Part shown: positions 801 to 54,262 of the stretch, in pieces
Position numbering within the stretch: position 1 is the first letter of the stretch
Layout of the letters: each line of letters begins with the position of its first letter
Origin: Patiria pectinifera
Taxonomy: Eukaryota > Echinodermata > Asteroidea > Valvatida > Asterinidae
Length of the DNA stretch: 64,000 bases
NCBI GenBank assembly: GCA_029964075.1
Contig: CM057136.1
Span: 13,008,381-13,072,380, forward strand
Direction: 5' to 3'
Made by a program: the position numbers and the translations under genes
Notes under the pieces: generated by a model
What the model saw: the letters and a program-made list of their open reading frames with translations, nothing else
What the model was told of the DNA's origin: nothing
Databases searched by the model: none

Positions 801-828
801 CTTTGTGAAACGTAACCCTCACTGGAAT

Positions 829-4214: not shown

Positions 4215-4361
4215 CGTCTCTTCCTGCAGACACTTGGACCTCTCCATGACATCTTCAAGTTGCTCTGCTGTAATCAGCTCATCGAGTTTCATGGTAACGA
4301 GGTTTTGCATGTCATACTTCAATTTCAAACGTCCTTGAATGCGGATGTCGGAATAGAAGTT
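4215..4361 (-). CDS. Copy A exon A3, diverged SNARE helix
   Basis: Forty-nine codons between the acceptor AATATACAG and the donor GTGAGT, starting NFYSDIRIQG and ending KCLQEET. Its phase matches exon B3. Alignment on LDDLM/LEDVM places Thr where copy B has Arg. Confidence 0.65.
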
Positions 4362-7300
4362 CTGTATATTAATAACAGATACACGTGTCAGGCGCGGATC
4401 CAGGAATTTTCGCAGGGGGGGGGGGGTCATCAGCCAACAAATCTGAAAATGTACAGAGGTGTTTTTTCTCCGGACACTTGGCCTACGTAGAATCAAAAAC
4501 TGGGTTGGGGTGGGATGGGGGTGGGTGAGTGGGTGGGTGGGTGGGGGTACCATATTTTCAATAGGGGGCGCTGTTCAAATTAGACGATTATTAACACTAG
4601 ATTACAGAATGGTGTACCGTATTTTGAACAGGCAGACATTATAGGCCTACCAGTATATTTTACAGCAGGGGGGGGGGGGGGGGGGGGGTTGGACTTATTT
4701 TTTAGGAATTTGTATGAGAATTTTTTTTTGGACAGAGCTGGGAAGGGGGGGGGGGGGGTTGCCAACCCCCTCTGGATCCGCGCCTGCGTGTATGATGAGC
4801 TTATGCAAAGTCTCATCCTGGTTAAAATATAATCAATTTTCTTTGATCCACTAAAACCAAATGCATGCATTTTCTTCAACAAATCCGACTGTTTACCTTC
4901 TCCGATTCCACCATCAGCATCGACAACGCCTCCATTTCTATTGTTCGTTCTACGAAATTATAGGTGTCATTGTTCATGATAAACTCACATGGAGTGACCA
5001 TATTCATCGGTCGCCAAGGTCGTTTCTCGAAACATCGGCATCCTATCTAAATTTCGCTGTTTTATTCTACCTTATAACACACTTATCTTGCCTTATCTGA
5101 ACTATTGCAACATTGTTTGGGCACGTGCCAGTCTTAACAAACTTCATTCACTCATCACTATCATTCGAAAACAGAATCTGCACCCTTGGCCTTTCACGCC
5201 CATGAGATACAGCACCCCTCTTAGCGAAATTTGCACAGTTACTAAGGGAATAAATGTGTGCTCGGGAGGTCTTAATCACTCTGTTTAAGACCGTTTGAAA
5301 TGGGTAAACTGTCTTAGGTATTTAGGAATAGTCAATATCGTGTACTTATGAATAGGTTTTTTTTTAATGAAATGGAGCGAGTAGCAATTTAAAAAAAATA
5401 TTTTCTCTAATTTGGTCACTTTCTTTTTGACTTACCCTGTAGTCCTATTTTAATGCCCTAATAAACCCGGTACCGGTCAGTTCAAGCGGGACCAAGGAAC
5501 TGTGCCAATATATGAGGCACCATGTGTAAATAAATTATTTAAAAAAATATTTATATATAATGCATTATTTATTATATAATTCAGTTTTTCGGCTTATCGG
5601 AGTTAGACTTACTTATTTATATAAAATGCATTATTTACATATCATAAATTTCTTCTCGGACAATATTTATATGTAAATAATTGTTTGGCAGTTTGCATTA
5701 TATGTAAATGAATTATTTGCCACTGCATTATTTATATATGTATTTTTGGCAACATATTTATTTAAAAATAATTGTTTGCAAACTATAATCATTTATTATA
5801 TAATTCATTATTTATTATATAATTCACTTTTTATTATATAATTCATTATTTATTATATGATTGATTGTTTATTATATAATTTTGCGCCACACACATTATT
5901 AATAATTAATTGGTTCGGTACGAAGAGAACGAGGCTGTGATTTATATACATGTATAATGGTTTTCAGCAAACCATTATATATTATATAATGGTTTTCTGA
6001 GCTAAATAATGAAACTCGCATGCAAATTACCTACTCAAGGACACGCCTATGTTTTAAATATTCATATCACGTAGCACACAAAAACACCGCACTATAGAAA
6101 CATGCAGTATTGTGTATTTTGAGTCTAAATTATTTTTATTTGCGCCACGAAAGGTACAGGAAATGAAAATGTCTCAATTAATGTAATTGGTGAATTCAAG
6201 TCGATGATTCTTAAAAATCACGGATAATTTATGCACAACGTACGACGGCCATCGATCGCGCAGTATATCGCCTCTGACACTGCACTGTAGCCACCCATGT
6301 ACAGTACCTGCAGCTAGCTGCGCGCGGCAGAAGTTTCAGGAAAACACGCTGCTGCTGCGCGAGCGGTACAATCAGTACGTATATACCTCGAAAACCGAAC
6401 CAAATAAATACTTCAAAATGGAAAAAGTTAACCATAGAAATTACATACACAAAAAGATAGATCACGTTCTGTGAATCAAATTACACAATTTTTTTTCCTC
6501 CATCTATTTTTGTTTGGCACTAGGAAGTTGGAACCAAGTTGAATTGGGACCGAGTTGACTAGGACTAAGTTGCTTTCCAGTCCACTCGGTCCCAACTCGG
6601 TCCCAGGTCAACTCGGTCCCAAGTCAGTCCTAGGTCATTGTTGTTTCTTTTTCAGTATTTTTTGCCCATAGCATTTGTACACGTTTTTTTTGTTACCGGC
6701 ACTTTGGGCACTAAAATCAATCCGATTGAGTTTATACTTTAGTGGTGAGTAGACCCTTTTGCTGGTTGTCATCCTTGGCAAATGTCTTGAGGTCGTCCAT
6801 ATAGAAGAGGTGGTTAAGTTTCCCATTCTTCTTCCAAAAGATCAGTCACTTGAATGATTAACAACATTTCGTGATTTCCTCAAAATGACAGCGAGTCAGA
6901 TGGAGTAATTTCACAGGGTGCTTAGTACCAGTACGGTATACGATCTTTAGTAAGCTTCTTGATGATAATTTGGTGGGTTACTTTTGGGGATAAATGCAAA
7001 TGATTCTATTTAATATTTACCATTTTTCGTTCGAGCACCGGGTTGAGGTCCGAGTCCAGCTCATGTTCGCCAGCGTCTTGGAGGCGCTGTTCCAACCTGT
7101 TGGTGGTCCTGACGTATTGGATGATCTCTCTCAAGAAATCAAACGATTTCGCCGTGATAAAATCTTCACGACTGGCCACACAGATGTATGCGATGTTCTT
7201 GCGTACTATCACCATGTACTCGTACCTGTACCTGTAAGCACAGTCATGTAATTTCAAATGAGCTTGAGCATGGCCAGTCTTATCCAGCTTTTGATGTGGG

Positions 7301-10300
7301 GGGGGGGGGGGGCAACCGCACTCGCAGTCTCGCACATCCGCCACGATATGTAGACACTTTTTTCTCCGGACACGTCGCCTCCGCAAATGCAAAATAAAAA
7401 AAAGGGGGGGGGATGTCACGTACCCATCTTCCAAAATGGGGACGCTCCTCAAAACGTACAATTATCATATGCAGACTGGAAAGTATAGGACGATTTTCCC
7501 AGCGCATTGTAAGGATTTTGGAGCTTGTTTTCCCCATGTCAGAACTCTGTAACCACTTATGGAAATAATTACTGAAAAAGTACCTTTAAATAAATCGTCG
7601 CTTTGCTCACGAAGTGAAAAAAACCTCAAAATTTGACAAAAGTTTATTCTGAGATCATCGCATTTGAAGTTGTTCATTTTTTCAAAAGACAATTTCGACC
7701 ACTTTGCAGTAACAGAATTCGGACGTTTTTGCATTGTCCGATAGGATATGATTTGCTATTTGTTAATTCATAGTTGTTTGTTAAAAATAGTTGGTAATTA
7801 AACAGTAATTCATTAATAAAACTTTTTTGCACTTCGTGAGAACATCAATAATTTGGGTACCATATTTTACCAATTACTTTGTACACAGTTCGTGGGATCA
7901 TTGAATCGCGGAGGCTTTACTAATAATTATTTTGTACTTTTTTCGACGCAACAAACTTGTTAACTTTGCGCGTCACGACAGTTGAGCGAGGGCGCGTGTG
8001 TTCTTTTTCAACATCGTTCGCGCGCGCGTGTATGCTCCCATCCTGCCGCGTGTAGACCATTGTATAATTTCTGTGTTCTGGCCACTGATCTCTATATAAA
8101 GACTGGATAGCGGATATGCATACAACATTCACACAGAAGACTTTGCATATTGACCAATTCGCCCCGGTCTCACGAAGATGGCCGCGTATAATACGAAAGT
8201 TCAACGCGTAAATACGCGCGCGTTGTATAAACAGTTGACGCGCATTTTGGTCACGTACACATATTATGATGTTCTAAAAGGGACACATTTCCGTAGTGAT
8301 TATCATTGCAAAACGCCGAAAAAGTGATATTTGCGGTATTTTAGTAACCACGACGTTAAAAAAAAATTGTAGTTAACCTGGCCTTGGTCAGTGGTGGTGG
8401 TCAAAATATAAGTCAAGTGAACCGCGACGTTACAAAAGAAATCATGCTGTCTATAAAAACGGCAACTTGTCCTTTGTAGGTCACCAGCCGGTCTCACCAA
8501 TATGGAGTCAAATTCGTTCATTGTGCGGCTCTTTATTAGCTATCCAGTCTTTATATAGAGATCAGTGGTTCTGGCCACTGATCTCTATATAAAGACTGGA
8601 TAGCGGATATGCATACAACATTCACACAGAAGACATTGCATATTGACCAATTCGCCCCCGGTCTCACGAAGATGGCCGCGTATAATACGAACGTTCTACG
8701 CGTAAATAGGCGCGCGTTGTATCAACAGTTGACGCGCATTTTGGTCACGTACACATATTATGATGTTCTAAAAGGGACACATTTCCGTAGTGATTATCAT
8801 TGCAAAACGCCGAAAAAGTGATATTTGCGGTATTTTAGTAACCACGACGTTAAAAAAAAATTGTAGTTAACCTTGGTCATTGGTGGTGGTCAAAATATAA
8901 GTCAAGTGAACCGCGACGTTACAAAAGAAATCATGCTGTCTATAAAAACGGCAACTTGTCCTTTGTAGATCACCAGCCGGTCTCACCAATATGGAGTCAA
9001 ATTCGTACATTGTGCGGCTCTGTATTAGCTATCCAGTCTTTATATAGAGATCAGTGGTTCTGGCCAGGCCCTGCTCACGAGCTGACTCTTTGTCACTTCG
9101 GATCGTGGAAACATGAATCGCGGAGGCTTTTACTTGTTTGTACTTTTGACGACATTTTGTTACTTTTGCGCGATGGGTGAGCACGCGCGCGTCTGTTCCT
9201 TTTCAACATCGTTCGCACGCGCGCGTATGCTCCCATCCCGCCGCGTGTAAACCAATGTATAATTCCTCCGGCCCTACTCACGAGGTGACTTTTTGGCACT
9301 TCGTGAGAACATTTTACACTTTTTTACACTTCGTAAAAATGAAAATGTCCGATTTCAGGCTTTTTGTCAATTGTTTGTTTACAATAATAAAGAAAGTAAA
9401 CAAGATTTTGCCTTGAAACTTGGTGAAATTGTTCCTTGAGACAACTATAATAAAATGGCCAGTAAAACTCAAAATCGAATAATTATCGATTTTCGAGGTT
9501 TTTGTCACTTCGTGAGCAAAGCGACGAAATATGAGACAAATTGTCCACAAATTGCATTCAGTGAAGTGATTGCGACTTACAAAATTGGGTCGTGGTTAGT
9601 GGCGTATCCGGGAGGGGGGGGGGAAGGGAAGGTGCCACCCTGCCCCCTCCCCATCTGGATGGCCCAATTTTATAAGTCGCGATCACTTCACTAAATAATA
9701 GATGCACTTTGTGGACAATTTGTCTCATAAATAAATTTGTCATAAATTTCCTGAGTGCACTACATCATCTTTTTAGTTAAAGCCATTTTTTCGTGTATTT
9801 TTTTTTTACCGATCATTCATTCAACTTTTGAAAACCCTATTCACTGGAATTTTAAACCACAAACTATTTCAGGTTCAAATATACAATTTAAAAAGTGGAA
9901 AGTTGAATGTTTAGTTAAAAGTGAGTGCTTTTTGTTTTGATCGGTGAGTTTGAACAACTGTACATTATATCTGAAATAAATAAACCATTTTACAGATGAA
10001 ATCTGACGCATGAATTGAAAGGAATTCAATTTCATTCCTATTAGCGCCGTGCACTACATTGTGTTTATTCATAAAAACCATAAGATAGCGTGGGTGTTTT
10101 CGGGCGATACAGTGACTACAGGGCCGCCCGGCCAAGCCCGGAGCCACTACGGTCAAATGACACTTGCTGGTTCCAGATTTACAGTATAAAGTCTATCTTC
10201 AGGTCAAATCACAAATCAATCACAATTCAATCAAAACTAGAATTACACTTAATAAGTAACAAGGGGATGAGCAATGATAAAGGAATGCCTTTCCTTTCAC

Positions 10301-10571
10301 TTAAAGAGTTTGCGATGAATTGTGACTGGCTTGTGATGATTTGGGATTTGCTTGCGATAACTCCTGATTGGCTTGTGATGACGTATTAAAAGTCTACTAT
10401 GGCCCTAGCTGGTTCTTACTCATCTGATTGGTATAACGTTTCGGAGTTAGAATTGAATGATATTTTTTGCAGCATGGACCGACACACGCTGGAGAAGTTG
10501 TGCCCATCGCTGGCTGAGCGTTCCACCAGGAGGGTAGCCTCCCTGGCTATACAGCTGTACAAGATTGTCAT
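4215..10571 (-). CDS. VAMP7-like longin R-SNARE, copy A (3' end not found)
   Basis: Minus-strand gene with three recognised coding exons: A1 10420-10571, A2 7021-7225 and A3 4215-4361. They join in frame (introns of phase 2 then 0) to 168 residues without a stop. Residues 1 to about 118 form a longin domain (start MTILYSCIA; core AYICVASREDF), and A3 corresponds to the SNARE helix. VAMP7 proteins are vesicle R-SNAREs that pair with target Q-SNAREs during late endosomal and lysosomal fusion. No transmembrane exon was found between 1 and 4214. The position that should hold the zero-layer arginine reads Thr (about residue 150), and A3 is five codons shorter than its copy-B counterpart. This may be a diverged functional paralogue, a longin-only protein or a decaying copy. 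The start is set at 10571 by comparison with copy B; an in-frame ATG 13 codons upstream also exists. Confidence 0.72.
4389..4786. mobile_element. G-rich MITE with CAGGCGCGGATCC ends, in copy A intron 2
   Basis: It has the same ends as 2813-3046, flanked by CGTGT at 4384-4388 and 4787-4791 (5-bp duplication). The left boundary lies only 28 bases upstream (minus sense) of the A3 acceptor. Confidence 0.78.
4930..5215 (+). pseudogene. Non-LTR retrotransposon reverse transcriptase fragment
   Basis: One frame reads IGVIVHDKLTWSDHI and another reads TLILPYLNYCNIVWARASL. These match the conserved C-terminal reverse transcriptase pattern (GV.LD..LTW..HI and LPYL.YCN.VW) of Jockey/CR1-type LINEs. The parts lie in different frames, so the copy is frameshifted and dead. 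No 5' region or endonuclease was recognised. Confidence 0.7.
5515..5900. repeat. A/T-rich repeats of TTTATTATATAATTCA
   Basis: Many degenerate copies of ATTATTTATTATATAATTC occur on both strands, with extensive self-complementarity. The block lies in copy A intron 2. Confidence 0.7.
6528..6637. repeat. Cluster of AACTCGGTCCC repeats, partly inverted
   Basis: GGGACCGAGTTGACTAGGAC on the left is answered by three copies of (A/G)ACTCGGTCCCA and GTCCTAGGTC on the right, so the block can fold on itself. Confidence 0.65.
7021..7225 (-). CDS. Copy A exon A2, longin domain second half
   Basis: Encodes 68 whole codons plus one base, YEYMVIVRKN through VLERKM, then the donor GTAAAT. It aligns with exon B2 ([14 protein letters not shown]). 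Two acceptors stand six bases apart, at 7231 and 7225; the inner one gives a copy-B-like register around the join, the outer adds two residues (Tyr-Arg). Confidence 0.8.
7885..8070. repeat. Left copy of a duplicated block around the MITE pair
   Basis: Shares TGAATCGCGGAGGCTTT, TTTTCAACATCGTTCGC and TATGCTCCCATCC with 9100-9264. The MITE pair 8082-9057 lies between the two copies. Confidence 0.75.
8082..8568. mobile_element. 487-bp MITE, first of two head-to-tail copies
   Basis: The terminal inverted repeat CCACTGATCTCTATATAAAG (extending to about 30 bp) is present at both ends. It is flanked by TTCTGG at 8076-8081 and 8569-8574. No transposase is encoded. Confidence 0.88.
8575..9057. mobile_element. 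483-bp MITE, second head-to-tail copy
   Basis: Nearly identical to 8082-8568, in the same orientation and with the same terminal inverted repeats. TTCTGG follows at 9058-9063, so one 6-bp sequence separates the copies and one flanks each outer side. Confidence 0.88.
9100..9264. repeat. Right copy of the duplicated block around the MITE pair
   Basis: Homologous to 7885-8070 in the same orientation, ending CCGCGTGTAAACCAATGTAT. CACTTCGTGAG words follow at 9297-9520. Confidence 0.75.
9530..9730. repeat. Inverted repeat with about 70-bp arms
   Basis: TGAGACAAATTGTCCACAAA through TTACAAAATTGGG on the left is inverted at CCCAATTTTATAAGTCGCGA through TTTGTGGACAATTTGTCTCA on the right. A G/C-rich centre (9600-9658) may be a second insertion. 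Confidence 0.8.
10270..10390. repeat. GTGA(T/C)TGGCTTGTGATGA minisatellite, copy A intron 1
   Basis: About five degenerate units of a roughly 22-bp repeat, ending 30 bases from the exon A1 donor. The same unit abuts exon B1 at 24240-24835. Confidence 0.8.
10420..10571 (-). CDS. Copy A exon A1, longin domain start
   Basis: Fifty codons plus two bases, [15 protein letters not shown] through ETLYQSD, then the donor GTAAGA. By eye, nine bases differ from exon B1 over the first 37 codons. The sequence upstream of the ATG also matches copy B, so the duplication includes the 5' flank. Confidence 0.82.
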
Positions 10572-11320
10572 TCTGTCGAAGGGCTCGAGGGGAATGCTGT
10601 CTGGCAGCAATCCAGGGGTGCCCCTACAACGTGATGAAAGGGAATGGGTTCAAGTGAAGTATTGGGGAAAAACATTAACAAAAGATACAACATTTCGAGG
10701 ACAACAAGACAAATGTATGACTTCATCAAGTGTCCCTATTTGTACAATGTATGTTTCAAATACAGAGCAAACATCATAAACAAAATGGTTGGAAATTGCC
10801 CACATCATGTATACACTTAATTAAGGTCAGTCACTGCAGCAAACTATACATGTACAGAATATTTAGAAAGAACACCACAATTGCAAATTAGCCGAAAATA
10901 GTTCTTATATAGGAAATATGTTTTTTTCTTTTTAATTTTCAAAACTAACGAATAACCACAGAGAAGGGAATATAGAAGGAGAGAGCAAAAAATCAAATTC
11001 TAAGGTCCAATGATGACCGCCGCGGTAATGAACAGCGGTGGTCGAACCCACCATAGTTGACATATGTGGACGGTTTAACGCATTCAAATTAACGAACTTT
11101 GGCGAACATATGACGTATTCTGTGCTTTCCTTTTTTCATTTGATTGTGGGCAATCATTTTCATCGTTTAGTCATTCAAATTGAGAAAAAAAACCTGTAAT
11201 TGGTATATTTTCATATTTTCCTCCGAAGCTCACTTTTATTACAAAATCTCTGTGACTGTAAAATTTAGATGCAAGAAAATAACTGATATGCGGGATGTGG
11301 GGTATGCCATTTTTAACCCC
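10572..11320. other. 5' flank of VAMP7-like copy A
   Basis: Stretches at 10572-10800 are homologous to 24995-25350 upstream of copy B and probably contain the 5' UTR and promoter. No TATA box or other definite element was picked out. The remainder is unremarkable. Confidence 0.5.
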
Positions 11321-11323
11321 ATC

Positions 11324-12940
11324 GGGGCGCTTCGCCTCGGGTGCTATGCACCACTTGGGTGTTCAAAATGTCATATCCTATTCCTACATCACAGCAGTCA
11401 ATGTTAAATTTTCAAAGTTTGGTGCATGCAATGGATCATTCGGTCAAGATTCCGACCACAAAGAGCCACCTGACTATACTTGGACAAATCAGCGACCATA
11501 ATCTTGACAAATAATAATGCGATACAGAATGTTGTTTGTGTTTTCTTTTTCATGTTGTTTATTGCCTGTGGGAAAATAAACTGAATTGATTGAGAACTTT
11601 TAAAGCCATGACAACTGGGTGCAGGTGCAAAAAAAAAAGGAAACTCATTTTTGGCAGCAATGTTCATAAAAAAGAGGATTTTTTTCGGGTAACACCATGT
11701 GGAAAGAAATCTCTTCTGGGAAGAAGTGTGGTTCTGAAAGGAAGCGGTTGGTTGAGTGTAGAACTCGACGATTTTATCACATCCACCATGCAAAGCTTCA
11801 AGTCATATTTCGTAATGTTCATCTATATTTTGTAGAGCATCAAAATTCAATTTATTGTTATTAAAATATTGATCATCATATAATAAAAGCGCCAAAATGA
11901 TTGCAACTGCATATTTTGTTTAATACATAATATTATGGTAGTTAAAGACATTTCATGTGCCCAACCTGTTTGTCCACGGAGGGCTATATTCCATCCGCTT
12001 GACTGAGCTCCGGAGCTTGATTTGAAGACAAAAAACACTACACTAGACTTACACATTGACAACAGTGATTTTGGTGACTTTTATTGAAATTAGCATAATA
12101 ACACTATTCTTGCGATTTTTAAAAGTTTTACACTACATTCTACAAAAAGCAGTTCAAATATTAAAGTAAGTAGGTTAAAATTCCTGCCAAAAATGGGTTT
12201 CCTTTTTTTGCACCACCCTTTAGAAACGTAAGAGCTCCATAAAATCGAAATTGACACTTTTTGCGGCATTAGCTTGTGCTGGTTAATCACTGGAGAGAGG
12301 GAGATCATGAACCTGTAACTTACACGAACACATTTCACATGCAAACGAAAAAGAGATATGTCTTTATTTCACATGTAAATAATACAAAATAGTCCAACAT
12401 TGATAAAAAAATGTGGCCGCTGATTTGTCCGGTCCCGCTGTTTCTGGGACACACTGTATGGAGACGTAGGGGCCGGCCCAATGAAAGAAAACTAAGAATC
12501 ATGGTTTATACTCACCTGCTGATGTCAAACTCAAATAAAATATAAGCTTTTTCTTGTAACTTTTCTTCGGGAAACACTGCGTCACACGTAGTCAAAATAA
12601 TTACGGGAATTCCCGTACACTAATTAGGCCTACACGGAGCATGCGCGAGCATGCGTGTCGCTTATTTACACAGTTAACAAATCAGTGGTATATATTGATT
12701 GCTAATACAGCGTACTCGGACTTACGTCTGAGTGCGCGTGAGATAGGTCCCCGCCTACCCTACACCCGAAGTAAAAATAGAGGGACAGGGAACTAGTCTC
12801 AGTCAGCTGTTGATTATTGTTGTTAATTATTTACCAAAGTTCATACCCCAAAAAGCATACAAGTAACTAAAAGCCATGTTTTGTCCGAGTTATCTCTGTG
12901 AAGTATTTTCCTTGGACTGTCAGACGTGAATTGGCCTCGG
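11324..12940. repeat. Segmental duplication, copy 1
   Basis: 11324-11465 and 11911-12940 match 13811-13845, 14117-14213 and 14218-15262 in the same order and orientation, with high identity over about 1 kb. The 445-bp stretch 11466-11910 is absent from copy 2; it holds an AACACCATGTG and CCACCATGCAAAGC fold-back-family fragment. Confidence 0.85.
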
Positions 12941-12956
12941 CCAGCATTGACATGGC

Positions 12957-13140
12957 CAGGGGCGGATCCAAGAATTTTTGCACGGAGGGGGGGGGGGGTC
13001 ATCAGCAAAAAAAATCTGAAATGTAGACATTTTTTCTTGGCCTCCGTAACAAAATAAACGGGGGGGGGGTTACTGTATGTTAGTAGGGGGCGCTGTTCAA
13101 ATTCGACGATTATTAACACTATATTACAGAATGGTGTACT
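12957..13140. mobile_element. Truncated G-rich MITE of the CAGGCGCGGATCC family
   Basis: Starts CAGGGGCGGATCCAAG and follows 4389-4786 as far as ATTACAGAATGGTGTAC, then stops at an unrelated repeat. No right end is present. Confidence 0.7.
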
Positions 13141-13146
13141 CCCTAT

Positions 13147-13512
13147 CTCAGGCCAAAAAAAAAAGTCTCCGGTTTCTGGTATGGAGCTTGTCCAAAAGGT
13201 GGTGCGGCGACACGGCTTTTTTTTTTACCTGACTTTTTTGCTTCAAAATGTCGGCTGATGACTGCAAATGGTGCCCGACTAAACTTAGTGCAAATATATG
13301 GGAGTCCAGAGAGGCCACATAAAGCTTATTCTCGATCATAACCCCATCTAAAAACACGTTAAAATTGTGCAGCAGTAGGATTCAAGTCAAACCAGTGAGT
13401 TTGGCGGTTTTGAGACATCATCTTTCATTGAAAAAAAAAGTTTTTCATTTTGCCGACGCGCATGGCTACGGCGACGCGCGCGCATACCAGAAACTGGAGA
13501 CTTTTTTTTGGC
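13147..13512. mobile_element. Dispersed element, related inverted copy at 62125-62400
   Basis: AAAGTCTCCGGTTTCTGGTA near 13163 is inverted at CATACCAGAAACTGGAGACT near 13485, suggesting terminal inverted repeats. The segment 13160-13410 matches 62125-62400 on the other strand. Confidence 0.65.
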
Positions 13513-14093
13513 CTAAGCTGTCTCTGTCCGTATTTTTGCACGGGTCGGAGATTTTTTTTGGGGGGGGGGGGTCAGAGTAGTCTGGCTGTCACCCGTTATC
13601 CACGGAGAAAATAGGCCCATGGCATTTGCCATGGGTCTTTTACATAAACTAGTGTCAGAGCGGGGGGCTCGCATTTTTTCAGGAATTTCAATGATTTTTT
13701 TTTGACAGAGTTGGGGGGGGGGGGGTTGGACCCCCAACCTCCCCCTTTCCTTTGGAAGTTGGAATTGTAGGCCACTTGTCATGAAAAACTCTTAAGTACT
13801 TACTTAAGTAAGGGCGCTTCGCCTCGGGTGCTATGCACCACTTTGGTGCACAATTGATTGCAACACAGTCTGTAACAATAATATGTATTTCTCTATATAG
13901 ACAATTTTCTTTAGTCAGATCTGTATGCACAATGTTTAAACCTTTTCTAATATTAGTATTTAATGTCATATTTTGTTTTTTAACTCGGTAGGCCTTTAAC
14001 AGACTTTTTAAAAATGCATTTAAAAAAAAAAAATGTAAATCACGTGCAATTCAGCTATGGCTGCCATTCGTGATTTGTTAATAAACCATGTTG

Positions 14094-14116: not shown

Positions 14117-15262
14117 GGTGTTCAAAACGTCATATCCCAAGTCACAGCAGTCAATGTTAAATCTTCAAAGTTTGGTGCATGCAATGGATCATTCGGTCAA
14201 GATTCCGACCACAGAGCCATATTTTGTCTAATACATAATATTATGGTAGTTAAAGACTTTTCATGTGCCCAACCTGTTTGTCCACGGAGGGCTTTATTCC
14301 ATCTGCTTGACTGAGCTCCAGAGCTTGATTTGAAGACAAAACACACTAGACTAGACTTACATGTGGACAACAGTGATGTTGGTGGCTTGTATTGAAATTA
14401 GACTAATAACACTATTTTTGCAATTTTTAAAGAGTTTTACACTACATTATACAAAAAGCAGTTCAAATATTAAAGTAAGTAGGTTAAAATTCCTGCCAAA
14501 AGTGGGTTTCCTTCTTTTTGCACCACCCTTTCGAAACGTAAGAGCTCCATAAAATCGAAATTGACACTTTTTGCGGCATTAGCTTGTGCTGGTAAATCAC
14601 TGGAGAGAGGGAGACCATGAACCTGTATCACACACGGACACATTTCACACGCAAACCAAAAGAGATATGGCTTTATTTCACATGTAAATAATACAAAATA
14701 GTCCAACATTGATAAAAAAAATATGGCCGCTGATTTGTCCGGACCCGCTTTTTCTGGGACACACTGTATGGAGACGTAGGGGCCGGCCCAATGAAAGAAA
14801 ACTAAGAATCATGGTTTATACTCACCTGCTGATGTCAAACTCAAATAAAATATAAGCTTTTTCTTGTAACTTTTCTTCGGGAAACACTGCGTCACACGTA
14901 GTCAAAATAATTCCCGTACATTAATTAGGCCTACACGGAGCATGCGCGAGCATGCGTGTCGCTTATTTACACAGTTAACAAATCAGTGGTATATATTGAT
15001 TGCTAATACAGCGTACTCGGACTTACGTCTGAGTGCGCGTGAGATAGGTCCCCGCCTACCCTACACCCGAAGTAAAAATAGAGGGACAGGGAACTAGTCT
15101 CAGTCAGCTGTTGATTATTGTTGTAAATTATTTACCAGAGTTCATACCCCAAAAAGCATACAAGTACTTGTGCCATCACACTCTAGTGATAAAACTAAAA
15201 GCCATGTTTTGTCCGAGTTATCTCTGTGAAGTATTTTCCTTGGACTGTCAGACGTGAATTGG
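14117..15262. repeat. Segmental duplication, copy 2
   Basis: Second copy of the block at 11324-12940, continuous where copy 1 carries the extra 445 bp. No intact gene is seen. Further fragments occur at 15265-15330 and 16222-16545. Confidence 0.85.
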
Positions 15263-15829
15263 CACGGAGCATGCGCGAGTATGCGTGTCGCTATTTACAC
15301 AGTAAACAAATCAGTGTATCAATGCGCGTCAAAACTACCTTTACGTCTGGGGTTCACTTGTACAATCAATTATAAGCCTACTAAATTTAAAATAACAACC
15401 ATACGCCTAGCCAGGATTTTTTCAGAGGGTGGGCAGGGGATCTGGAGGGGGTGCACTAGCATGTTATGAGGGGCACTTATAGGTCGTATGAGATGGCCGC
15501 TTGCATGCAAGCTCTGCACACGTAAAGAGCGGACCCAGACTAGCCCAGGTTGGACGACGTGAGGGTATTCGAATGGAGTAAAAAGTCATTATATACATTC
15601 AGCTTCTGTTTAATCTAATTAACTCACTAATGAGATACTTTAAAAAGACACTCCATGAGCAAGCGAAAAATTAGGTCTGTCGGTGCTCGGGGGGGGGGGC
15701 ACCTATGTCTAAGTATCGCCGATTGTCCAACGAAGCTCGATAATGATGAACATTTTATGCGACCCCGCGTCAGCCAATCGGAACGGAGTTTTGAAGCTGT
15801 GAAGTCGGTCGATCAGAAATGTAAATCTA

Positions 15830-16093
15830 CATGGGCGTCGCGGGGGGGGGGCAAGGGGGCACTTCCCCCCCCCTGGAAAAGCAAAAAAAAAAAAAAAAAA
15901 AGGAAGAAAAAAAAGAAAAGAAAAAGAGGCGCGAAGACAAAGTGGTGTAAAGTTAATGAGTTGGGGGGGGGGGGGGCAAAATGTCCCTGTCCCCCTCTAA
16001 AACTGATAAATCGAGAATGTGTTGAGAAATACAAGCATTTTTGGGCAAATTTTTTTTTGCCCCCCTCTAGAAAAAATCCTGGCGACGCCCATG
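15830..16093. mobile_element. 264-bp hAT-like non-autonomous element
   Basis: The ends CATGGGCGTCGC and GGCGACGCCCATG are inverted, with TAAATCTA at 15822-15829 and 16094-16101 as an 8-bp direct flank. The interior is homopolymer-rich (G, A and C runs). The lysine-rich frame through it is an artefact. Confidence 0.75.
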
Positions 16094-16221
16094 TAAATCT
16101 ACTGCGTCTTACTCCAAAATGACATTAATTAGCCTCCAGGGACGTGAAATAAGTTGTAAAATATTTTATTCCTCGAAGCTATTACTAGTACATTCGTGCT
16201 AGGGACTATTTGACGGGCCTA

Positions 16222-16545
16222 CTCACTGACGTGACGTGCGTCTGAGTACGCGTGAGACAGGTCACCGCCTACCCTACACCGAAGTGTAATAATAGAGGGA
16301 CCGGGAACCAGTGAAGGTCGTCAATGAGACCATGGAGAAATAACTCATTAGAGACACACGCTTGGAAAAAAATGATGAGAGTGTGCCCGTAATGATGAGA
16401 CGCTCGTCAGCTGTTGATTATTGTTAATTATTTACCAAAGTTCATACCCCAAAAAACATACAAGTACTTGTACCATCACAATCTATTGATAGAAAGCCAT
16501 GTTTTGTCTGAGTTATTTCTGTGCAGTGTTTTCCTTGGTCGGTTG
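16222..16545. repeat. Third, partial copy of the segmental duplication
   Basis: Matches the right part of both larger copies, from GTGCGTCTGAGTACGCGTGA to GTGTTTTCCTTGG, with more divergence and a local insertion near 16310-16395. Confidence 0.75.
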
Positions 16546-16574
16546 CCAGACGTGAATAGACGCTTTAGGCTATA

Positions 16575-16800
16575 TCATTATGTTGCCACCATTTCAGTTA
16601 TGTTCCCCGTATCCAATAACAGTACGGAATGATGTTTTTGGTGCTTAAGGAACCAGTCCAATTTTCCTTCCAGCCTCGCCTTTGGTGACGTTGATTTGAA
16701 TGGGAAAAATCAAGATGGCCACAACATGATAATAGTGTATTGGCCTCGGCCAGCCAGCGTTGACTTGGCGTGCTGCAATTGGAATTTGAGGCCACTTGTC
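16575..16800. repeat. Dispersed repeat, inverted copy at 52690-52890
   Basis: CAGTTATGTTCCCCGTATCC through CATTCAAATCAACG-type sequence (its inverse here) recurs in reverse at 52690-52890. The tail AGCGTTGACTTGGCGTGCT also recurs near 26446. Confidence 0.7.
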
Positions 16801-16899
16801 ATGAGAAATTCGTATATAGGTAAGATACTCAGAAAACTTATCATCATACGCAAGTTTTTTTCCTCTGAGATTATAGCGCTGCCTCAGTCAGTCAGTTGA

Positions 16900-19800
16900 T
16901 CAGTCAGATAAGTAAAAATGGACACTAAACTGGTCCTCTGGAACCAGCTCAAAAAAGTAAACCTTTTTGAAGTTAGGGAGGAGACTACTGGGGTGCTTGA
17001 GGGGCTGAGGGGGGAGGGGTTGCTGTTCCAGCGATCTTTTGCAGATCAAGCAACATCTTGCATTTTTTACTAAAGATGCTATGAAAAATGCATGCATAAA
17101 AATCTTGGTAATGTTCCTGGGAAATATTAAAGGTTAACAGTTTTAAAGTAATGTGACTGATTGAAGATTTCATTTTCAATATTTTGTTTTTATTATTTAT
17201 TTACACGATTGTTCATTGAATAAGTCGTCAACATATATTTATTTTTATTTTGAGAGTTGTTACATTCATCATCAAGTCTATGCAAATTAGTCTAGATTAA
17301 ATGAAATCCGGTTTAAACATAGAAAATACACTATAAACATTGACACTAGGCCTACATGTAACTCGATACATCTTTTCATAATGTCCACAATGCAATTTAA
17401 AGCAAGTATTACATAATTATTTGTCTTCCTACACAATTACTTTACAAATGAAGTTACTGTATGTGCCATGTAAATATATATAATTTTGTTTCTGCAATAC
17501 ATACATGTACGCAGAGTCAGTAATACTATTTGAAATGAAAGAATACGGAGCAGAGGTACGTTGAGGAATGTAAGAAGAAATGAAAGTTCATATTTAGATG
17601 CGTTTTATCATTTATACAATGTAACTGCATTTTCAAATGCGGCACCAGATTCTACAATATCAGTCAGTACTTCGACTTTGAATATTGAGGTTTTGAAAGT
17701 AGAGTACAAACAGAGATTACAAGAGTAAAGTTATGCCAACTTGGTACAACTTCGCCCATCCAGTGGAGAAGTTTTCTTAAATAAACATGCATTTTGATGC
17801 AAATTGCAGTTTCAAAAGGCAATTACATAATACATGTACATGCTTAAAATTATGTATTTGAATCCTTCATTTTAAAGAAGAAAGAAAACCCTTTACTTAC
17901 TGAAATTTTGCTAATAAAAAACATATACATATGCTGATAATACATGTACAATATTTTGAAAACATAACACAATTTAAGTAGCATTCAAATTTAAAGGAAG
18001 TTTTACAGATCAAAAATAACAATATACAGTATTCATAATAAATTTGCCTTTTTTTTTTAAACATAAAGATTATATTCTCCCAGTCTGGCTTCATTATTTT
18101 TCTTTCCATGTACAAATGAAAGCTCATTGTTTTCAGTGATGGATCTAACACCGCCTGGGAAAAATTAGTGAAAAAAATAATTATTGACAATAAAGTTAAC
18201 CCATTAGCACTACATTGTATTACATTGTGTTTATTCACTGTAGAATCAATAAAACCATAGAGGGCGGTTCTTGGGCGGTTTGGAGAGCTACAGTGACTAT
18301 TAAGGGTTTGCGTTAAGGAAAGGTCATGAAATGTAAGAAAGGGCCGGCATTGCTTAAGGACATGTGGTACCTTTATTCTTTTAAGGTGAGTTATATTACG
18401 GCGGGTTAATCCATCACTGTTTATGAAAGAAAGTTCTTTTTTAAGAATTCAATTGTGTTTTTTTTTTGATAATTAAATATGACTTCTCTGTGCCTTTAAC
18501 ACGGAACCATTTTTTCTATGCCACAACTTTTTATTTTTTTTTGTTTTTGAGGGAATGGGACAACAACTTCCAAAAAGAAGCAACAGTATGGTACAGGAAA
18601 AAAGAACATGCTTGAATTGCTACAAATGTCTGTTCAAGGTGATCTTTGACATTGACAAGTCATTAAATTTTGAAAAAAATCTCAAAGGCACTTACAGATA
18701 CAAGCATGGTTCTTTATCAATTAAAATATATTAGGCCTATAATATGATCTCATCATGTGCTTCTAGTTCTAACACAATATAAGTTTATAGCTATAATGCG
18801 TTCATTACAAATCATGTGATTGGTTTGCATGTATCTTCTATTTAGTTCAAGGTATTTTCGGACATAATATTTGCTTTCAGATATAACAGAACGAAGAATG
18901 AGAGTAAAACTGCGTTCAACCACTCTATTTCTTATAACTGTCAATTTACAATTGCTGTGCATGCATTTAATATTTGTTTGTGCAGGTATTACACATACAA
19001 GTTAAAACAAAGAAACCAAAACGTTCATTAGATTGGACCTTCTTTGTCAGAAATTGTTTGGGTTCAAAATTGTTTGGGTTCACGCAAAGCTAATCCTAAT
19101 CTTTCCCAGGCACATACATGTATCAGATCATGGAATATTCATTCAATGTTAATCAAAGCAGTCAAGATTTTGGCAAGGTTTGGACATAATCACTGATAAC
19201 TGATTTCAATAAAAATGGGAGTTCACTTCCTATTTTTAATAATTACTAAATTAAAAGCTGCAGAAATATCCAATTTCACATTTATTAAAATTTGCCTACT
19301 TATATCGATAAACAAATGGTATATATTCAACTAATTGTTCCCACACTATCGGATGCTTTCCCCTCTGGATCTTTTTTTTCTGAGTATATGAATTTTTAAT
19401 TTTTTTTATTAAAAAAAAAAATCCACAATTTTTCTCCTACGTAGTATACAAATTATCTTAATGCTTTTCACTCACCACGTAACCCTTAACTAAGACTTTC
19501 AGTATTATTGGCTCACAAATAACCCAAAAAAAACGGCCCCTACAAAAAAAAATAATAATGTATAAAAAAATGTTAAACAACAAAAATTTAAAAAGGGCAA
19601 AATAGCCACTTCACACAACAGACAACCTAACATAAATTTAAAATGTCAAATTCAAATGCTCACAATTAAATATTGAATTGAATATTTCTCAAAGTGGACA
19701 ATTTAGCACCTTCTGTTTTCCCGTCCAATTTAGAACCAAGAATTTTAATGGGAAGACAATCACGACAGAAAATACAAAATACAATCACAACAAAATAGTT

Positions 19801-20360
19801 TCAGATTTCAGGACATCAAAGCTTTCAAATTTCTTTTCAAGATCAATTTTGGGGGGAAAATCAAGGAGCACTAGATCGTTCAACGTATATTGTGTAATAA
19901 CTTTACATTTCTGTGATTTTTAAAAGAAAAATTGGTCCAATAACGAATAAGTTAGCTTAATACTACATTATAGTCAAAGTTGTCTTTGCTTGAGCCAGGC
20001 TTTCATACAATCTAGGGATGAAATTATCAATTTCAAAAACGAAAACAAAGGTCTAAAAATTTGGGTGTAAGGTCTAAAAGATGCATTTCTTTCTATACTG
20101 ATAATGTCTTTCTCTCAGATTCAAAAAGTCTGACTTAAGACTCAAGTCTGAAAAAACTCCCGCCTGTACAATCTCAGAGAAACCCCCATCAATATCAAAA
20201 ACATTTAGGCTAACCGACTGGTCTTGACCACTTCTCAAAAACATACAAATACATTACGTTTTACATATATGTCTACTGTAAAGTTGGCCATAGTGTTTTG
20301 CTAATATACAGTTGTATGTTGTGATGTTGTCTATGATGTCTAGTATTTTTCCCAACGATG
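16900..20360. other. A/T-rich intergenic stretch, no gene recognised
   Basis: Only short frames without family motifs. A sequence near 18230-18310 (TACATTGTGTTTATTCA, TACAGTGACTA) also occurs near 10055-10115, so a dispersed repeat is present. Otherwise I see nothing. Confidence 0.5.
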
Positions 20361-20404
20361 AAAAATTAAAAAAAAAATGCAACCCTAAAACATTTGCCAT
20401 AACA

Positions 20405-20635
20405 AAAAAGGGATTGATGGATTTTTATGTTTTGGGTATCAGATTAAAGCTGAGAGCTTTTTCTTTCAAATACTAAAACAAATCATGAAAATGTTTCACT
20501 GTTTGAAGCATTTGTGTACAGGATGAAAATGAAAACCCAAAGTGCTATTTTCATATTGTTTAAGTATTTTAAAGAAAAAACTCTCAGCTTTAATCTGGTG
20601 CCCAAAACATCAAAATCCACCGATTTTTAAAAAAA
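20405..20635. repeat. Inverted repeat with about 65-bp arms
   Basis: TCAGATTAAAGCTGAGAG on the left arm is answered by CTCTCAGCTTTAATCTGG on the right, and the match continues outward to GATGGATTTTTATGTTTTGG. The spacer is about 90 bp. It lies downstream of copy B. Confidence 0.8.
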
Positions 20636-20859
20636 AAATGCAAATGTATAGCCCTAACAGTTCTGAATCCTCCAATTTTAATATAATTTTGCACACCCCC
20701 TCGGGAGTTGGGGTTAAGGGTTGCATTTTTGGGGGGTCACCCTGTACCGGGGGAAAAGGGATTTTATGAAAAAATTCTGAAATTACCAGAAAAGTCATGA
20801 ATTCAGATAAATATGAAAGTTTTTTACAAACGAATCCGGGCACGTGATCACTGTACACT

Positions 20860-20980
20860 CACGAGGCCCCCTTCAATGGAGAATCCATTGTGCATGCTAT
20901 TGTACAAAGCAACTGCCCAGTGACGATTATCTGAACAATAGCTAGCACAATGCTTTGGCCATTGAAGGGGGCCTTCGTGA
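20860..20980. mobile_element. Small MITE with GGCCCCCTTCAATGG ends
   Basis: TCACGAGGCCCCCTTCAATGG at the left is inverted as CCATTGAAGGGGGCC at the right, then TTCGTGA. Total about 121 bp. It carries no coding sequence. Confidence 0.75.
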
Positions 20981-21059
20981 TAGAATTGATAGCGTGATCT
21001 GGATTGGTCTATACAAAATTTAAATTCTCAGATTTTCAAATTCTGCGCGTAATCGATCA

Positions 21060-21240
21060 TACAAATTTAAAGTCCTTAAATTTCAGAGTTCTTGCTTATG
21101 TTTTTTATTCAGGGGAGAGAAATGTGGTATGGGAGGTTGCTTGTTACTTTTCATTTAAAGTCCTTAAATTTTAGAATTCTTGCTTATGTTTGTATTCAGG
21201 GGAGAAAAATGTGGTATGGGAGACTGGTTGTTACCTTTTA
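21060..21240. repeat. Tandem duplication of about 95 bp
   Basis: AAAGTCCTTAAATTT through GGTATGGGAG occurs twice, starting near 21068 and 21158, with a few differences. It sits just 3' of the copy B stop codon and probably in its 3' UTR. Confidence 0.82.
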
Positions 21241-21331
21241 ATGCCCTTCAGAACGGATCCAAGTTTGAACAGGATTGATCGAGCCGTTGCGGCAAGCACA
21301 AATGTGGAGCAGTGACATTGGGATATGGCGA

Positions 21332-21478
21332 TCAGATGACCTGGGCGATCTTCAGGATGATGACAATCAGCACTGCTACGACGATGATGATGACTACAGC
21401 TAGGATGATACCCGTCTTGCGGTTCATCCATTTGTACTTGTTGCTGACCCGCTTGGCCGTCTTCTGGAAAGACTGGGC
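21332..21478 (-). CDS. Copy B exon B4, basic linker and transmembrane anchor
   Basis: Begins [13 protein letters not shown] after the acceptor CCTTCAG and ends KIAQVI then TGA. The hydrophobic run is about 22 residues with only four residues between its Lys and the stop, so the protein ends almost at the membrane. Confidence 0.85.
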   Translation of the reverse strand, partial: AQSFQKTAKRVSNKYKWMNRKTGIILAVVIIIVVAVLIVIILKIAQVI

Positions 21479-24400
21479 CTGAAGGGCGAGCGAATTTGAA
21501 TGGAAAGAGATGTAAAATGTACAATTCAAAACACAATTGTGGATACAGGGGCGGATCCAGGGTTTGGCTCATGGTGGGGGGGGGGGCAGTACATGTAGCT
21601 GTGAATGTAGAAGTTTGAAATCTAGATGCTTTCTCCTGCATTTGGGGGGATATTCAGAGAGGCTGGTAGTATATTATAGTATATAATAATAATAATAATA
21701 ATAATTTGGGAGGCTAATCATCCTTACTCGCAGCTGGTATGCTGAATTGCGACGTGACGGCTACACCGTGGGGCCGCCGGGGGCGTAGGCGCGCCTGGCT
21801 GCTGCCGGCCATCGATGACCACAGAGCACAGCCTGAGATCGAAAGTGTTTGATTGTTCCGGGGAGGAAAACCGGAGGTCTGAGAAAAAACCTCGTGGCAC
21901 AGGAGAGAGGCCAGGATTCGAACCGCGGTCACCTTGGTGAGAGGCGAGTGCTTTACGCACAAGCCATCCATGCCACCCATATGAGTAGCAGACTAAAACC
22001 AAACCCATCTGGGTGGGTATTGTTGTGGTGATGTTTTTGTTGTTGTTGTTTTGGCAGCCAGAGGGGAGGGGTTGGGAGGGCTGGGGAGTGGGAGGAACCA
22101 CTAATAGCCCACGCCCAGGTAGATCCGTCACGCACCGGGGGAAGAGGGTTGGTGGGTGGGGGTGCAAAGGAAAAGAAGAAAACACGCATGACCTTAGCCC
22201 CACAAAGGAGAATAATCTGCCGCCATAAATATGCCTGGTGAATAGATATATTGCCAAACTGGACGTCTGCCAACCTACATGTAATTCTGATACCTCAGTT
22301 GGTACAGCGCCGGAACAGTAATAGAAGTCAGATATTAAATATCCAAAGCGGATTTTGGATCTAGCTTTCAGGAAATGGGGGAGGGGTTTGACATGACAGG
22401 GGATGGGGGGGGCAGGTTGAGCAAAGTAACAAAGGTCAGAAATCAAATATCCAAAATGGATTTTGGATCTAGCTTTCAGGAAATGGGGGGGGGGGGGGGG
22501 GGAAGGGTTTGACATGAAGGGGGAGGGGTGGGCAGGTTGAGCGAAGGTGTGCCCGGAACGTCTTGTTAGGGAGGGTCCGGGGCATGGCCCCTCCCGCCTT
22601 CCCGGACATTTGTGAAATCTATGATGCTTTCTCCTGCATTCTGAGGCACTGTGACAATAAATTCCGGAATTTTAGCATTCCATTTATCATTTTTGACCCC
22701 ATTTTACTGGTATCATAACATTAGTCAGCGGCTGACCAACCAGGGGACTTGCAACCCCCCCAAACTCCCCCTCTAGATTTGCCACTGGCTTATGAAAGTG
22801 TACTTTCTGAGTTTCCTTCTGTAACATATTTGATGGGAAAGAATGCAACTCACGCTTGCTTCCAGATCCTCGGTTTTCTGCATGAGGTCATCCAGTTTCT
22901 CCCCTCTGCTCAGAACCTTGTCAATGTTCTGGATCATAATGCCTTTGACCTCGTCCACTTGACTCTGAAGGTTATCAATGTTGCTGGCCGACTCCTTCAA
23001 GTGGGAATAGTGGTCCTGCAAAGGAAATATACATAATAGATATAAACGTGCATGTACATGTGTGAGATAGTTACAAGTGTGTCGAAGCATCAGGAACAGA
23101 TGCTTCAGCTGGATTATAGCACAAGTGAGGTACGTGTAATCCTAGATGCTCGGAATTTCCCAATACTGGATTTGATTCAATCTCGTTGATAGCATCCTCT
23201 GTGCTTTTTACATGACTTTTCCTGGACAAAATTAGGGCTTTCTGTGACCAATGCCGATGCTGTTTTTTTTTTGGCATCTTAGGAGCCTATTTACAACACA
23301 CATTGAGATATGGTAGATTAAAATGTCATGTATCAAACCTGGTGGTCCATGGACGGCTTTATTCCATCTGCCTGAAGCCCTGTTCATACTCGGCACGAAA
23401 GCGAAAGCGAACGTGAATTTGTGACGTCATTGCAGGTATTCGCGCTGCGAATTCGTAAAAGTTGAACACATTTCAACTCGGGCGAAGTTCGCAGCGAACG
23501 TGCCATGACGTCAAATTCGCTTCGCATTCGCATTCACGTGGAGTATGAACCAGGCTTAACTGAGCTCCAAAGCTTGATTTGAAGACCAAAAACACACAAT
23601 CCAAATCCAGTCTGGCAGCAATTGAAAAAAAAATATTAGGAGGGTTTATTACCATTTCCTGGCTGAGTACAATACTGAGGTCCCTGTCCAATTCATGTTC
23701 GTCGGCGTGCTGGACGCGCTGGTCCAGGCTGGAGGTCGTGACGCGTCGGATAATCTCGTCCAAGAACGCATACGACTTCTTCTTGCTGAAATCTTGACTA
23801 GTCGCGCAGAGGTAGGTGATGCCGTTACGCACTATCACGGGGAACATATACCTGGGACAAAGCAAGCACAGGTAGACCACGGAACAACTTCAGGAGTTTT
23901 CTCATTAAATAGCACGGATACGTTAAGGAAACTTCCTCTGTAATGAAGTTAGTACCTTCATTGCAGGAAGATTCATGAAAAGTAGATCTAATTTCACTGC
24001 TCTGTGGATTACTGAATTGATGTCGTTGGCTATTTCTTGGGTTGGGGAATGGCAAATTCATCCCTGATTCATAAAATAAATAGGACAATGAAGCAATATT
24101 TTGAACCTTTAGAAGAAAGGAAAGAAAAAAATGTACATATTTCATGAATGTGCTTTATCATCCTTGCAGTAGAGCCATTTGTCTTGTATTTCTTATCCAT
24201 CTTTTCTCAACTTTGGATTATTTCAAAAACCACATTCATTGGGATTTTGGCTCGTGATGATTTGTGACTGATTGGCGATGATTCATGATTGGCCTGCGAT
24301 GACTTGTGATTGGCTTGCGATGACTTGTGATTGGCTCACGATGACTTGTGATTGGCGTGTGATGATTTGTAACTAGCTTGTGATGACTTGTGACTGGCTT

Positions 24401-24994
24401 ACAACGACTTGTTATTGGCTCACGATGTTCTACGATTGGCTCACAGTGACTTACGATTGGCTTGGGATGATTTGTGATTGGCTTGCAATGACTTATGACT
24501 AGCTTACGCTGACTTGTGACTGGCTCGCGCTGACTTGTGACTTGCTTGCGTTGACTTGTGACTGTCTTGCGATGACTTGTGACTGGCTTGTGATGACTTG
24601 TGACTGGCTTGTGATGACTTGTGATTGGCTTGCGATGATTTGTGATTGACTTGCGATGACTTATTATTGGCTTGCGATGGTGTATGATTGGGTTGCGATG
24701 GGTTGCGATAGGTTGCGATGACTTGTGATTGGCTTGTGATGACTAGTGATTAGCTTGTGATTGCTTGTGATTGACTTGTGATTGGCTTGTGATTAGCTTG
24801 TGATTGACTTGTGAAGACTTCATTATGACCCTAGCGTGTTCTTACTGATCTGACGTGTAGACCACTTTGGAGTCTTTATACGGTATGTTCTGCAGCATGG
24901 ACCGACACACGCTGGAGAAGTTGTGTTCATAGCTGGCTGAGTTTTCCACCAGGAGGGTAACCCCCCTGGCTATACAGCTGTACAAGATTGTCAT
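21332..24994 (-). CDS. VAMP7-like longin R-SNARE, copy B (complete)
   Basis: Four coding exons, B1 24846-24994, B2 23653-23851, B3 22854-23015 and B4 21332-21478, give 657 bases or 218 residues, close to the 220 usual for VAMP7. Residues 1 to about 115 are the longin domain that regulates VAMP7 folding. Residues about 120-180 are an R-SNARE helix with the zero-layer Arg near residue 153 (VLSRGEKL). A basic stretch (NKYKWMNRK) precedes a C-terminal anchor of Ile and Val at about 193-214, typical of tail-anchored vesicle SNAREs. Every junction has GT-AG signals and keeps the frame. An in-frame TAG seven codons upstream supports the ATG at 24994. The protein should act on late endosomes, lysosomes or secretory vesicles. 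The closest named family is VAMP7; an invertebrate-specific branch is possible. Confidence 0.88.
21683..21985 (-). repeat. tRNA-derived SINE-like element
   Basis: On the minus strand a tRNA-like head contains a box B, GGTTCGAATCC, near 21912-21922 and a box-A-like GGATGGCTTGTGCG near 21970. A (TTA)n tail lies at the other end, at 21683-21705. A tRNA-like head plus simple-repeat tail is the SINE layout. Confidence 0.6.
22244..22330 (+). repeat. Degenerate SINE fragment
   Basis: CTCAGTTGGTACAGCGCCGGAAC resembles the D-arm region of the tRNA-like sequence at 55224-55296. A related but more decayed copy lies near 2716-2790. Confidence 0.5.
22327..22545. repeat. Tandem duplication of about 110 bp, copy B intron 3
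   Basis: GATTTTGGATCTAGCTTTCA and GGGTTTGACATGA recur in two successive units (22327-22437 and 22438-22545); the second carries a longer G run. Confidence 0.85.
22854..23015 (-). CDS. Copy B exon B3, R-SNARE helix
   Basis: Fifty-four codons starting [12 protein letters not shown] after the acceptor TTTGCAG and ending KTEDLEAS before GTGAGT. It holds [13 protein letters not shown] and the arginine of VLSRGEKL, both diagnostic of VAMP7-type SNARE motifs. Confidence 0.9.
23330..23600. repeat. Fragment of the segmental repeat in copy B intron 2
   Basis: GGACGGCTTTATTCCATCTG and GAGCTCCAAAGCTTGATTTG match 11975-12030 and 14280-14335. Here a MITE splits it at 23376-23556. Confidence 0.75.
23376..23556. 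mobile_element. 181-bp MITE with AGCCCTGTTCATACTC ends
   Basis: The left end AGCCCTGTTCATACTC is inverted at the right as GAGTATGAACCAGGCT. The uninterrupted host sequence at 14297-14335 shows the empty site. Flanks suggest at most a 2-3 bp target duplication. Confidence 0.75.
23653..23851 (-). CDS. Copy B exon B2, longin domain second half
   Basis: Encodes [10 protein letters not shown] through VLSQEM after one split codon, between the acceptor TTGTCCCAG and the donor [16 protein letters not shown] and [10 protein letters not shown] align with the VAMP7 longin fold. Confidence 0.9.
24240..24835. repeat. GATGACTTGTGATTGGCTTGC minisatellite, copy B intron 1
   Basis: About 27 degenerate units of roughly 21 bp. 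The array ends 11 bases from the exon B1 donor. The same unit borders exon A1 (10270-10390) and appears in inverse orientation in GFPT1 intron 12 (47530-47960). Confidence 0.9.
24846..24994 (-). CDS. Copy B exon B1, longin domain start
   Basis: Forty-nine codons plus two bases, [15 protein letters not shown] through KVVYTSD, then GTAAGA. Aligned codon by codon with A1, six of seven differing codons in the first 37 change the amino acid. Confidence 0.87.

Positions 24995-37118: not shown

Positions 37119-54262
<17,144 letters not shown>

Follow-up and report, generated by a model that had tools for sequence, protein, structure and literature searches.

Gene Content of the Locus

The stretch analysed here, referred to as the window, comprises 64,000 nucleotides of the sea star Patiria pectinifera (contig 8, positions 13008381-13072380, of a 613.5-Mb assembly in 1020 contigs), and it carries a tandem pair of longin genes, copies A and B, that both lie on the minus strand. 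Each is a four-exon gene with GT-AG introns (A1-A3, B1-B4) and intron phases of 2, 0 and 0 (Table 1). The shared gene structure and phases had been noted in an earlier reading of the letters alone (the sequence-only reading), which overlooked the fourth exon. The pair is a solid new example of known processes.

Table 1. Coordinates of copies A and B and of associated features, numbered from the first base of the window
Feature	Position	Strand	Description
A exon 1	10571-10420	minus	codons 1-50 plus 2 nt
High-identity tract in A	10468-10585	minus	from 14 bp upstream of the ATG through base 104 of exon 1 (codon 35); likely gene-conversion tract
Wider 5′ block of A	10400-10695	minus	exon 1 with upstream region and the beginning of intron 1; 79% identity with B
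A exon 2	7225-7021	minus	rest of longin domain
A exon 3	4361-4215	minus	degenerate SNARE region without the zero-layer arginine
A exon 4, first part	1268-1217	minus	52 nt; acceptor ttcaaag; cut off by inserted repeat
Inserted dispersed repeat	1-1216, continuing to -179	minus	~1.4 kb; splits A exon 4
A exon 4, second part	-180 to -277 (left of window)	minus	membrane helix and stop
B exon 1	24994-24846	minus	GT-AG gene model
B exon 2	23851-23653	minus	rest of longin domain
B exon 3	23015-22854	minus	R-SNARE motif with zero-layer arginine; PF00957 above cut-off
B exon 4	21478-21332	minus	end of SNARE motif, membrane helix and stop; intact

Copy B is an intact, normal membrane-anchored longin R-SNARE that is distinct from the genome's own VAMP7. 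Its longin domain scores 44.3 bits against PF13774 (Longin; cut-off 26.2 bits), and its R-SNARE motif scores 96.9 bits against PF00957 (Synaptobrevin; cut-off 26.4 bits). The centre of the motif, in exon 3, reads VLSRGEKL, the arginine of which we take to be the zero-layer residue. The membrane anchor consists of a hydrophobic stretch and stop in exon 4, and it falls within the PF00957 match. VAMP7 is the best match of B in the PDB (4b93, E 1.9e-33), and B resembles VAMP7 (TI-VAMP) in possessing a longin domain, an R-SNARE motif with the zero-layer arginine and a C-terminal helix. In contrast to VAMP7, however, the C-terminus of B is short, without the VAMP7 tail, and the SNARE half is nearer VAMP8. 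Taken alone, that half (21332-23015) matches VAMP8 at 62.8 bits, VAMP2 at 61.3 bits and VAMP7 at 44.6 bits, and a longin domain combined with a SNARE half nearer VAMP8 or VAMP2 than VAMP7 could mark B as a longin-bearing relative of endobrevin. The genome's own VAMP7 lies on contig 7, is 69% identical to human VAMP7 over the first 68 residues and has no cut at codon 50. The genome also possesses a synaptobrevin whose exon pieces match human VAMP2 at 86-96% identity (the human VAMP7 and VAMP2 queries were entered by hand).

The closest match of copy A in the genome is B. Exons 1-3 of A match the VAMP7 longin structure 2dmw at E 5.9e-11, and its longin domain reaches 26.2 bits against PF13774 for exons 1-3, or 24.8 and 25.0 bits when letters of exon 4 are added. 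A search of A exons 1-3 with PF00957 gave no match, and a genome-wide search with the same profile (24 candidates scored) returned 14 matches at E up to 1, which included exons 3 and 4 of B and none at A. When the two parts of exon 4 are joined, A scores 26.5 bits against Synaptobrevin, from profile position 30 on only; by hand count, the arginine of B sits at about position 29 of the profile.

Together, the two parts of A exon 4 amount to 49 codons, as compared to 48 in B4. A model of the exon as a single continuous piece (-277 to -128) was rejected, since genome matches of its protein exposed the inserted repeat: 44 of 51 matches fell at other loci and were limited to the first ~20-29 residues of the piece. 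An extra A exon near 4898-4978, open and with a donor-like GT by eye, was set aside, as no convincing acceptor was seen by eye; a B counterpart was not searched for. A second SNARE-like exon was sought in the A locus and 20 kb beyond, with no convincing match. Exon 2 of A has an alternative acceptor 6 bp upstream (exon start 7231), which could yield a variant longer by two residues.

A Step in Silent Divergence

Over codons 1-37, A and B are identical at 102 of 111 bases and 31 of 37 residues. The proportions of silent (pS) and amino-acid-changing (pN) sites that differ are both 0.08, corresponding to 2.0 silent changes in 24.7 sites and 7.0 amino-acid-changing ones in 86.3 sites, and the synonymous and nonsynonymous divergences (dS and dN) are both 0.09. 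Beyond codon 37 the picture changes abruptly. Codons 38-51 retain only 24 of 39 bases, with a pS of 0.45, and exon 2 shares 36 of 66 aligned residues, with a pS of 0.50, a dS of 0.81 and a dN of 0.34. Exon 3 shares 10 of 47 residues (pS 0.62), and exon 4, with A read as two parts, shares 9 of 47 (pS 0.55), with dN equal to dS. These values bear out the earlier counts of nine differing bases in the first 37 codons, roughly half of the residues shared in exon 2 and about a quarter in exon 3. The observation drawn from them is confirmed. Silent divergence between A and B is, in form, a step and not a slope, with its break inside exon 1.

The step is also evident in the codons themselves. Among degenerate codons that specify the same residue in both copies, 28 of 29 are identical in codons 1-37, as compared to 20 of 35 in exon 2 (Fisher P 3e-4) and 34 of 57 in all later codons (Fisher P 2e-4). 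The longest run of identical codons in this set spans 27 of 86, a length that was reached in 43 of 100000 shuffles. Synonymous divergence is thus unequal across the exons. Of note is that, in codons 1-37, A and B are closer to one another than to either VAMP7 compared: each copy shares 14-15 of 36 residues with the same genome's VAMP7 and with the human VAMP7 entered by hand, as compared to the 31 of 37 that A and B share with one another.

Probable Gene Conversion at the 5′ End

That neighbouring duplicates exchange short tracts by conversion is well known. A nucleotide alignment of A and B with 310 ungapped columns was searched for the best two-rate segment, with 300 shuffles as the reference. 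The best segment is the 118-bp tract of Table 1, which is identical to B at 111 of 118 positions versus 134 of 192 elsewhere in the alignment; none of the 300 shuffles reached its gain in likelihood. Identity amounts to 78 of 108 positions upstream (-130 to -19), 17 of 18 immediately before the start codon (-18 to -1) and 102 of 111 in codons 1-37, and then to 23 of 38 in codons 38-51 and 21 of 27 at the start of the intron. The break in identity is therefore located inside exon 1, the last ~14 codons of which are already diverged, and not at the intron. Further out, upstream similarity fades, except for a ~43-bp piece at about -149 to -189. That the 5′ block is a dispersed repeat was not supported: a 501-base query around A exon 1, in a search that skips simple repeats and very common words, matched the assembly in only two places, namely at A and, with the portion of the query from -124 to about +171, at B, at the sensitivity of that search.

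A tract of lowered silent divergence with sharp edges, of the kind found in a gene-conversion pair, is thus present, and an interior conversion tract is the best fit to the 5′ end of A and B. The resemblance to conversion between tandem duplicates as generally known lies in a short, sharp-edged patch of low silent divergence between neighbouring genes. A difference is that the patch here reaches no further than the first part of the coding sequence, with A and B highly diverged over the remainder.

Two other explanations of the tract can be weighed against conversion. For the 5′ end, the sequence-only reading had named recent gene conversion and a recombinational join as alternatives, and a single recombination that joined a 5′ piece of B (or of A) onto an older, different longin gene would indeed account for exons 2-4 being far more diverged than the 5′ end. 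Yet codons 38-51, the donor site, 27 intron bases and 108 upstream bases can all be aligned at intermediate identity, and A and B agree in every exon boundary and phase, which one breakpoint would not produce. Because moderate similarity is found on both sides of the tract, interior conversion is favoured and a join is very unlikely. Alternatively, exon 1 could be held at the nucleotide level, for example by a splicing or translation-start element, with silent sites evolving slowly in both copies and no conversion at all. The tract does surround the start codon, the upstream flank is partly conserved as well (78/108), and silent changes are no more than moderately depleted when the upstream rate is the yardstick (P 0.016). 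However, constraint on nucleotides should not spare amino-acid-changing sites, which in codons 1-37 are as diverged as silent ones, and the edge of the tract lies inside exon 1, with codons 38-51 already at background divergence. The equality of dN and dS in codons 1-37 points instead to homogenization followed by drift, and we consider nucleotide constraint quite improbable. At the silent rate of exon 2, two or fewer silent changes in 25 sites would have a probability of 1e-5.

Probable Loss of Constraint on the SNARE Exon of Copy A

The question of which copy has changed was addressed by relative rates with two outgroups, the same genome's VAMP7, assembled from the exons that tblastn matched, and the human VAMP7 sequence entered by hand. 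With the genome's own VAMP7, the numbers of residues derived in A and in B are 1 and 1 in codons 1-37, 2 and 1 in codons 38-51, 6 and 5 in exon 2, 14 and 3 in exon 3, and 4 and 8 in exon 4. With human VAMP7 they are 1 and 2, 2 and 1, 5 and 3, 20 and 1, and 4 and 9 for the same segments. The excess of A in exon 3 has a two-sided P of 0.013 with the first outgroup and 2e-5 with the second; an earlier alignment to the genome's own VAMP7 gave 13 and 4 for that exon. At this resolution, excess change seems confined to exon 3 and to copy A.

Exon 3 is also where the hallmark of an R-SNARE has disappeared. At the centre of the motif, A aligns as LIT-AEQL with VLSRGEKL of B, and the arginine that gives R-SNAREs their name is absent from A. 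If the gap is placed correctly, the two halves of the A helix would be one residue out of register. The faster change of exon 3 in A and the absence of its zero-layer arginine both speak for constraint that was relaxed or altered, in line with the relaxed constraint that had been suggested for the SNARE half of A, insofar as exon 3 is concerned. Both alternatives of the sequence-only reading are thus supported, in different exons: conversion at the 5′ end and relaxed constraint in exon 3.

A Dispersed Repeat in Exon 4 of Copy A

The last exon of A is split by a repeat that has many relatives in the genome. From 1216 to -179 it is 98.4-99.2% identical over ~1.4 kb to copies at three of 14 compared loci (L037, L039 and L049), and about 88-94% identical to those at the other 11 (L036 over 632 bases only). 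A genome search with window positions 1-1216 yielded at least 43 other matches, a lower bound, as 40 of 660 candidates were scored; the closest match listed was 100% identical over 1216 bases, on contig 21, and several others were 99% identical. Its edges are shared with other copies: the repeat begins with the sequence that also opens the copies at L039 and L040, which have different left flanks, and it ends within two bases of the copy at L036, which has a different right flank. Inspection by eye revealed no target-site duplication at the insertion. Among the matches listed, ten form an array on contig 21 at a spacing of about 1.6 kb, and a ~35-bp sequence stands in inverted orientation on the two sides of many copies of the repeat. 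Given its near identity to other copies, the insertion in A exon 4 is very young.

Translation from A exon 4 into the repeat reaches a stop at 1160, which overlaps an AATAAA. The sequence of the membrane helix of A is still present, parted from the first portion of exon 4 by the ~1.4-kb repeat. As assembled, copy A would therefore lack a membrane anchor unless splicing rescues it.

Proposed History and Fate of Copy A

The following history is considered likely as a whole. A longin R-SNARE gene distinct from the genome's VAMP7 would long ago have been duplicated locally in tandem, giving rise to copies A and B. Conversion would later have copied ~118 bp between them, from just before the start codon to about codon 35, as the silent-site pattern and the sharp interior edges suggest. 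Copy A would have lost constraint on its SNARE exon, with no clear excess of change over B in its longin half, and probably left ordinary SNARE bundles; for the greater part of its existence it presumably kept such longin functions as binding and sorting while anchored in a membrane. Recently, the ~1.4-kb dispersed repeat would have inserted into A exon 4 and separated what is left of the SNARE motif from the membrane helix, and B would have remained normal throughout. Read straight through, the present A allele would end in the repeat and yield a soluble product; alternatively, A may now be dying.

Several observations weigh against parts of this history. The case for conversion involves two sequences only, A and B, and small counts (~25 silent sites with two differences), and its strength depends on the yardstick, the silent deficit being weaker at the upstream noncoding rate of 30/108 than at the silent rate of exon 2. 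For the loss of constraint, both VAMP7 outgroups are very distant and, as noted, either pieced from exon hits or entered by hand, and the sites are few, with 17 and 21 available for exon 3 and 11 and 8 for exon 2. The relative rate is reversed in exon 4, where B has changed more than A with either outgroup. Furthermore, dN/dS of the exon 2 pair is an average over both copies, the longin score of A is at or just under the cut-off, and the joined A tops the Synaptobrevin cut-off by 0.1 bit, so that loss of the motif is not total.

The fate of A is open to two further explanations, both of which bear on the split exon. Copy A could simply be a pseudogene in which the fast SNARE exon, the lost arginine and the split last exon all reflect neutral decay, and the split itself as well as the equality of dN and dS in codons 1-37 and in exon 4 are as expected of one. 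Nevertheless, exons 1-3 are open and their splice sites kept despite a silent divergence of 0.5-0.6, in the longin exons A has not clearly changed more than B, albeit on few sites, and the insertion is very recent, so any loss of function through it would be recent too. In simulations of neutral drift that counted stops only, with 3000 runs per K, the A frame stayed open in 147, 29 and 6 runs at K of 0.2, 0.4 and 0.6, respectively. Plain neutral decay is consequently a possibility of some weight that still falls short of probable. The second explanation is that the repeat is removed or used by splicing, from a GT just before it or from the exon 3 donor to an AG near its end, with the frame kept into the helix and A still anchored. 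Within its last ~100 bases the repeat does contain AG sites from which an open frame runs on into the helix part, but the sites look weak by eye and a frame match would occur by chance about one time in three; such a rescue is unlikely. The history proposed above is preferred to either.

Whether the longin domain of A could still bind partners can be gauged from a known contact. In a VAMP7 L43S/Y45S mutant, the longin domain no longer bound AP3 (PMC3549491). At the aligned positions, B has V and Y, while A has T and Y, and groove binding by the A longin domain is plausible, not assured.

Relation to Known Longins

Longins that have departed from SNARE function are known from several lineages. 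Phytolongins are non-SNARE longins of land plants, in which a longin domain and a membrane helix accompany a replaced SNARE motif and the zero-layer arginine is not conserved, and they derive from a VAMP7-type R-SNARE (PMC2779197, PMC4861013). With the insertion left aside, copy A would resemble them in its longin domain, its lost zero-layer arginine, its encoded membrane helix and its descent from a VAMP7-type R-SNARE. It differs in that it occurs in an animal, hence presumably with a separate origin, in that the C-terminal half of its motif is faintly recognizable, and in that its helix is cut off by a repeat in the assembly. Because phytolongins are described as a land-plant family derived from VAMP72, A is not classed as one. 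It is a speculative and quite unlikely prospect that A represents an animal counterpart of phytolongins in the making, in which SNARE pairing was lost, the start of the longin domain was refreshed by conversion, and the repeat supplied a stop and polyadenylation signal to produce a soluble longin regulator.

Other longins without a SNARE motif include mammalian Sec22a and Sec22c, a longin-only Sec22 of rice and isoform b of VAMP7 (PMC2779197), as well as a Sec22-like longin of kinetoplastids (PMC5399786). These are Sec22-related genes or a splice isoform, whereas A was duplicated in tandem from a VAMP7-like gene. Copy A may work like these longins and the phytolongins. Keyword searches of open-licence literature, at the level of titles and the starts of abstracts, brought up no non-SNARE gene of the VAMP7 type from echinoderms or other invertebrates. 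If A is expressed, it would provide a natural test of a longin domain without a working SNARE motif in an animal. More generally, conversion and loss of constraint appear to act on different exons of one pair, and a gradient of similarity along a gene need not reflect one event.

Other Features of the Window

Tandem arrays of related 21/11-bp units occur in the first introns of both genes, with 27 copies in B (24247-24814) and 3.4 copies in A (10310-10381), and a similar-looking array with a period of 55/11 is located at 47535-47938. By eye, positions 12000-12960 are nearly identical to 14150-15250, and 8050-8560 to 8570-9070; these pairs are probably repeats. On the plus strand, a piece of a Skp1-like gene is found at 31005-31484 and a piece of a glutamine amidotransferase gene, presumably of the GFPT type, at 42152-42451.

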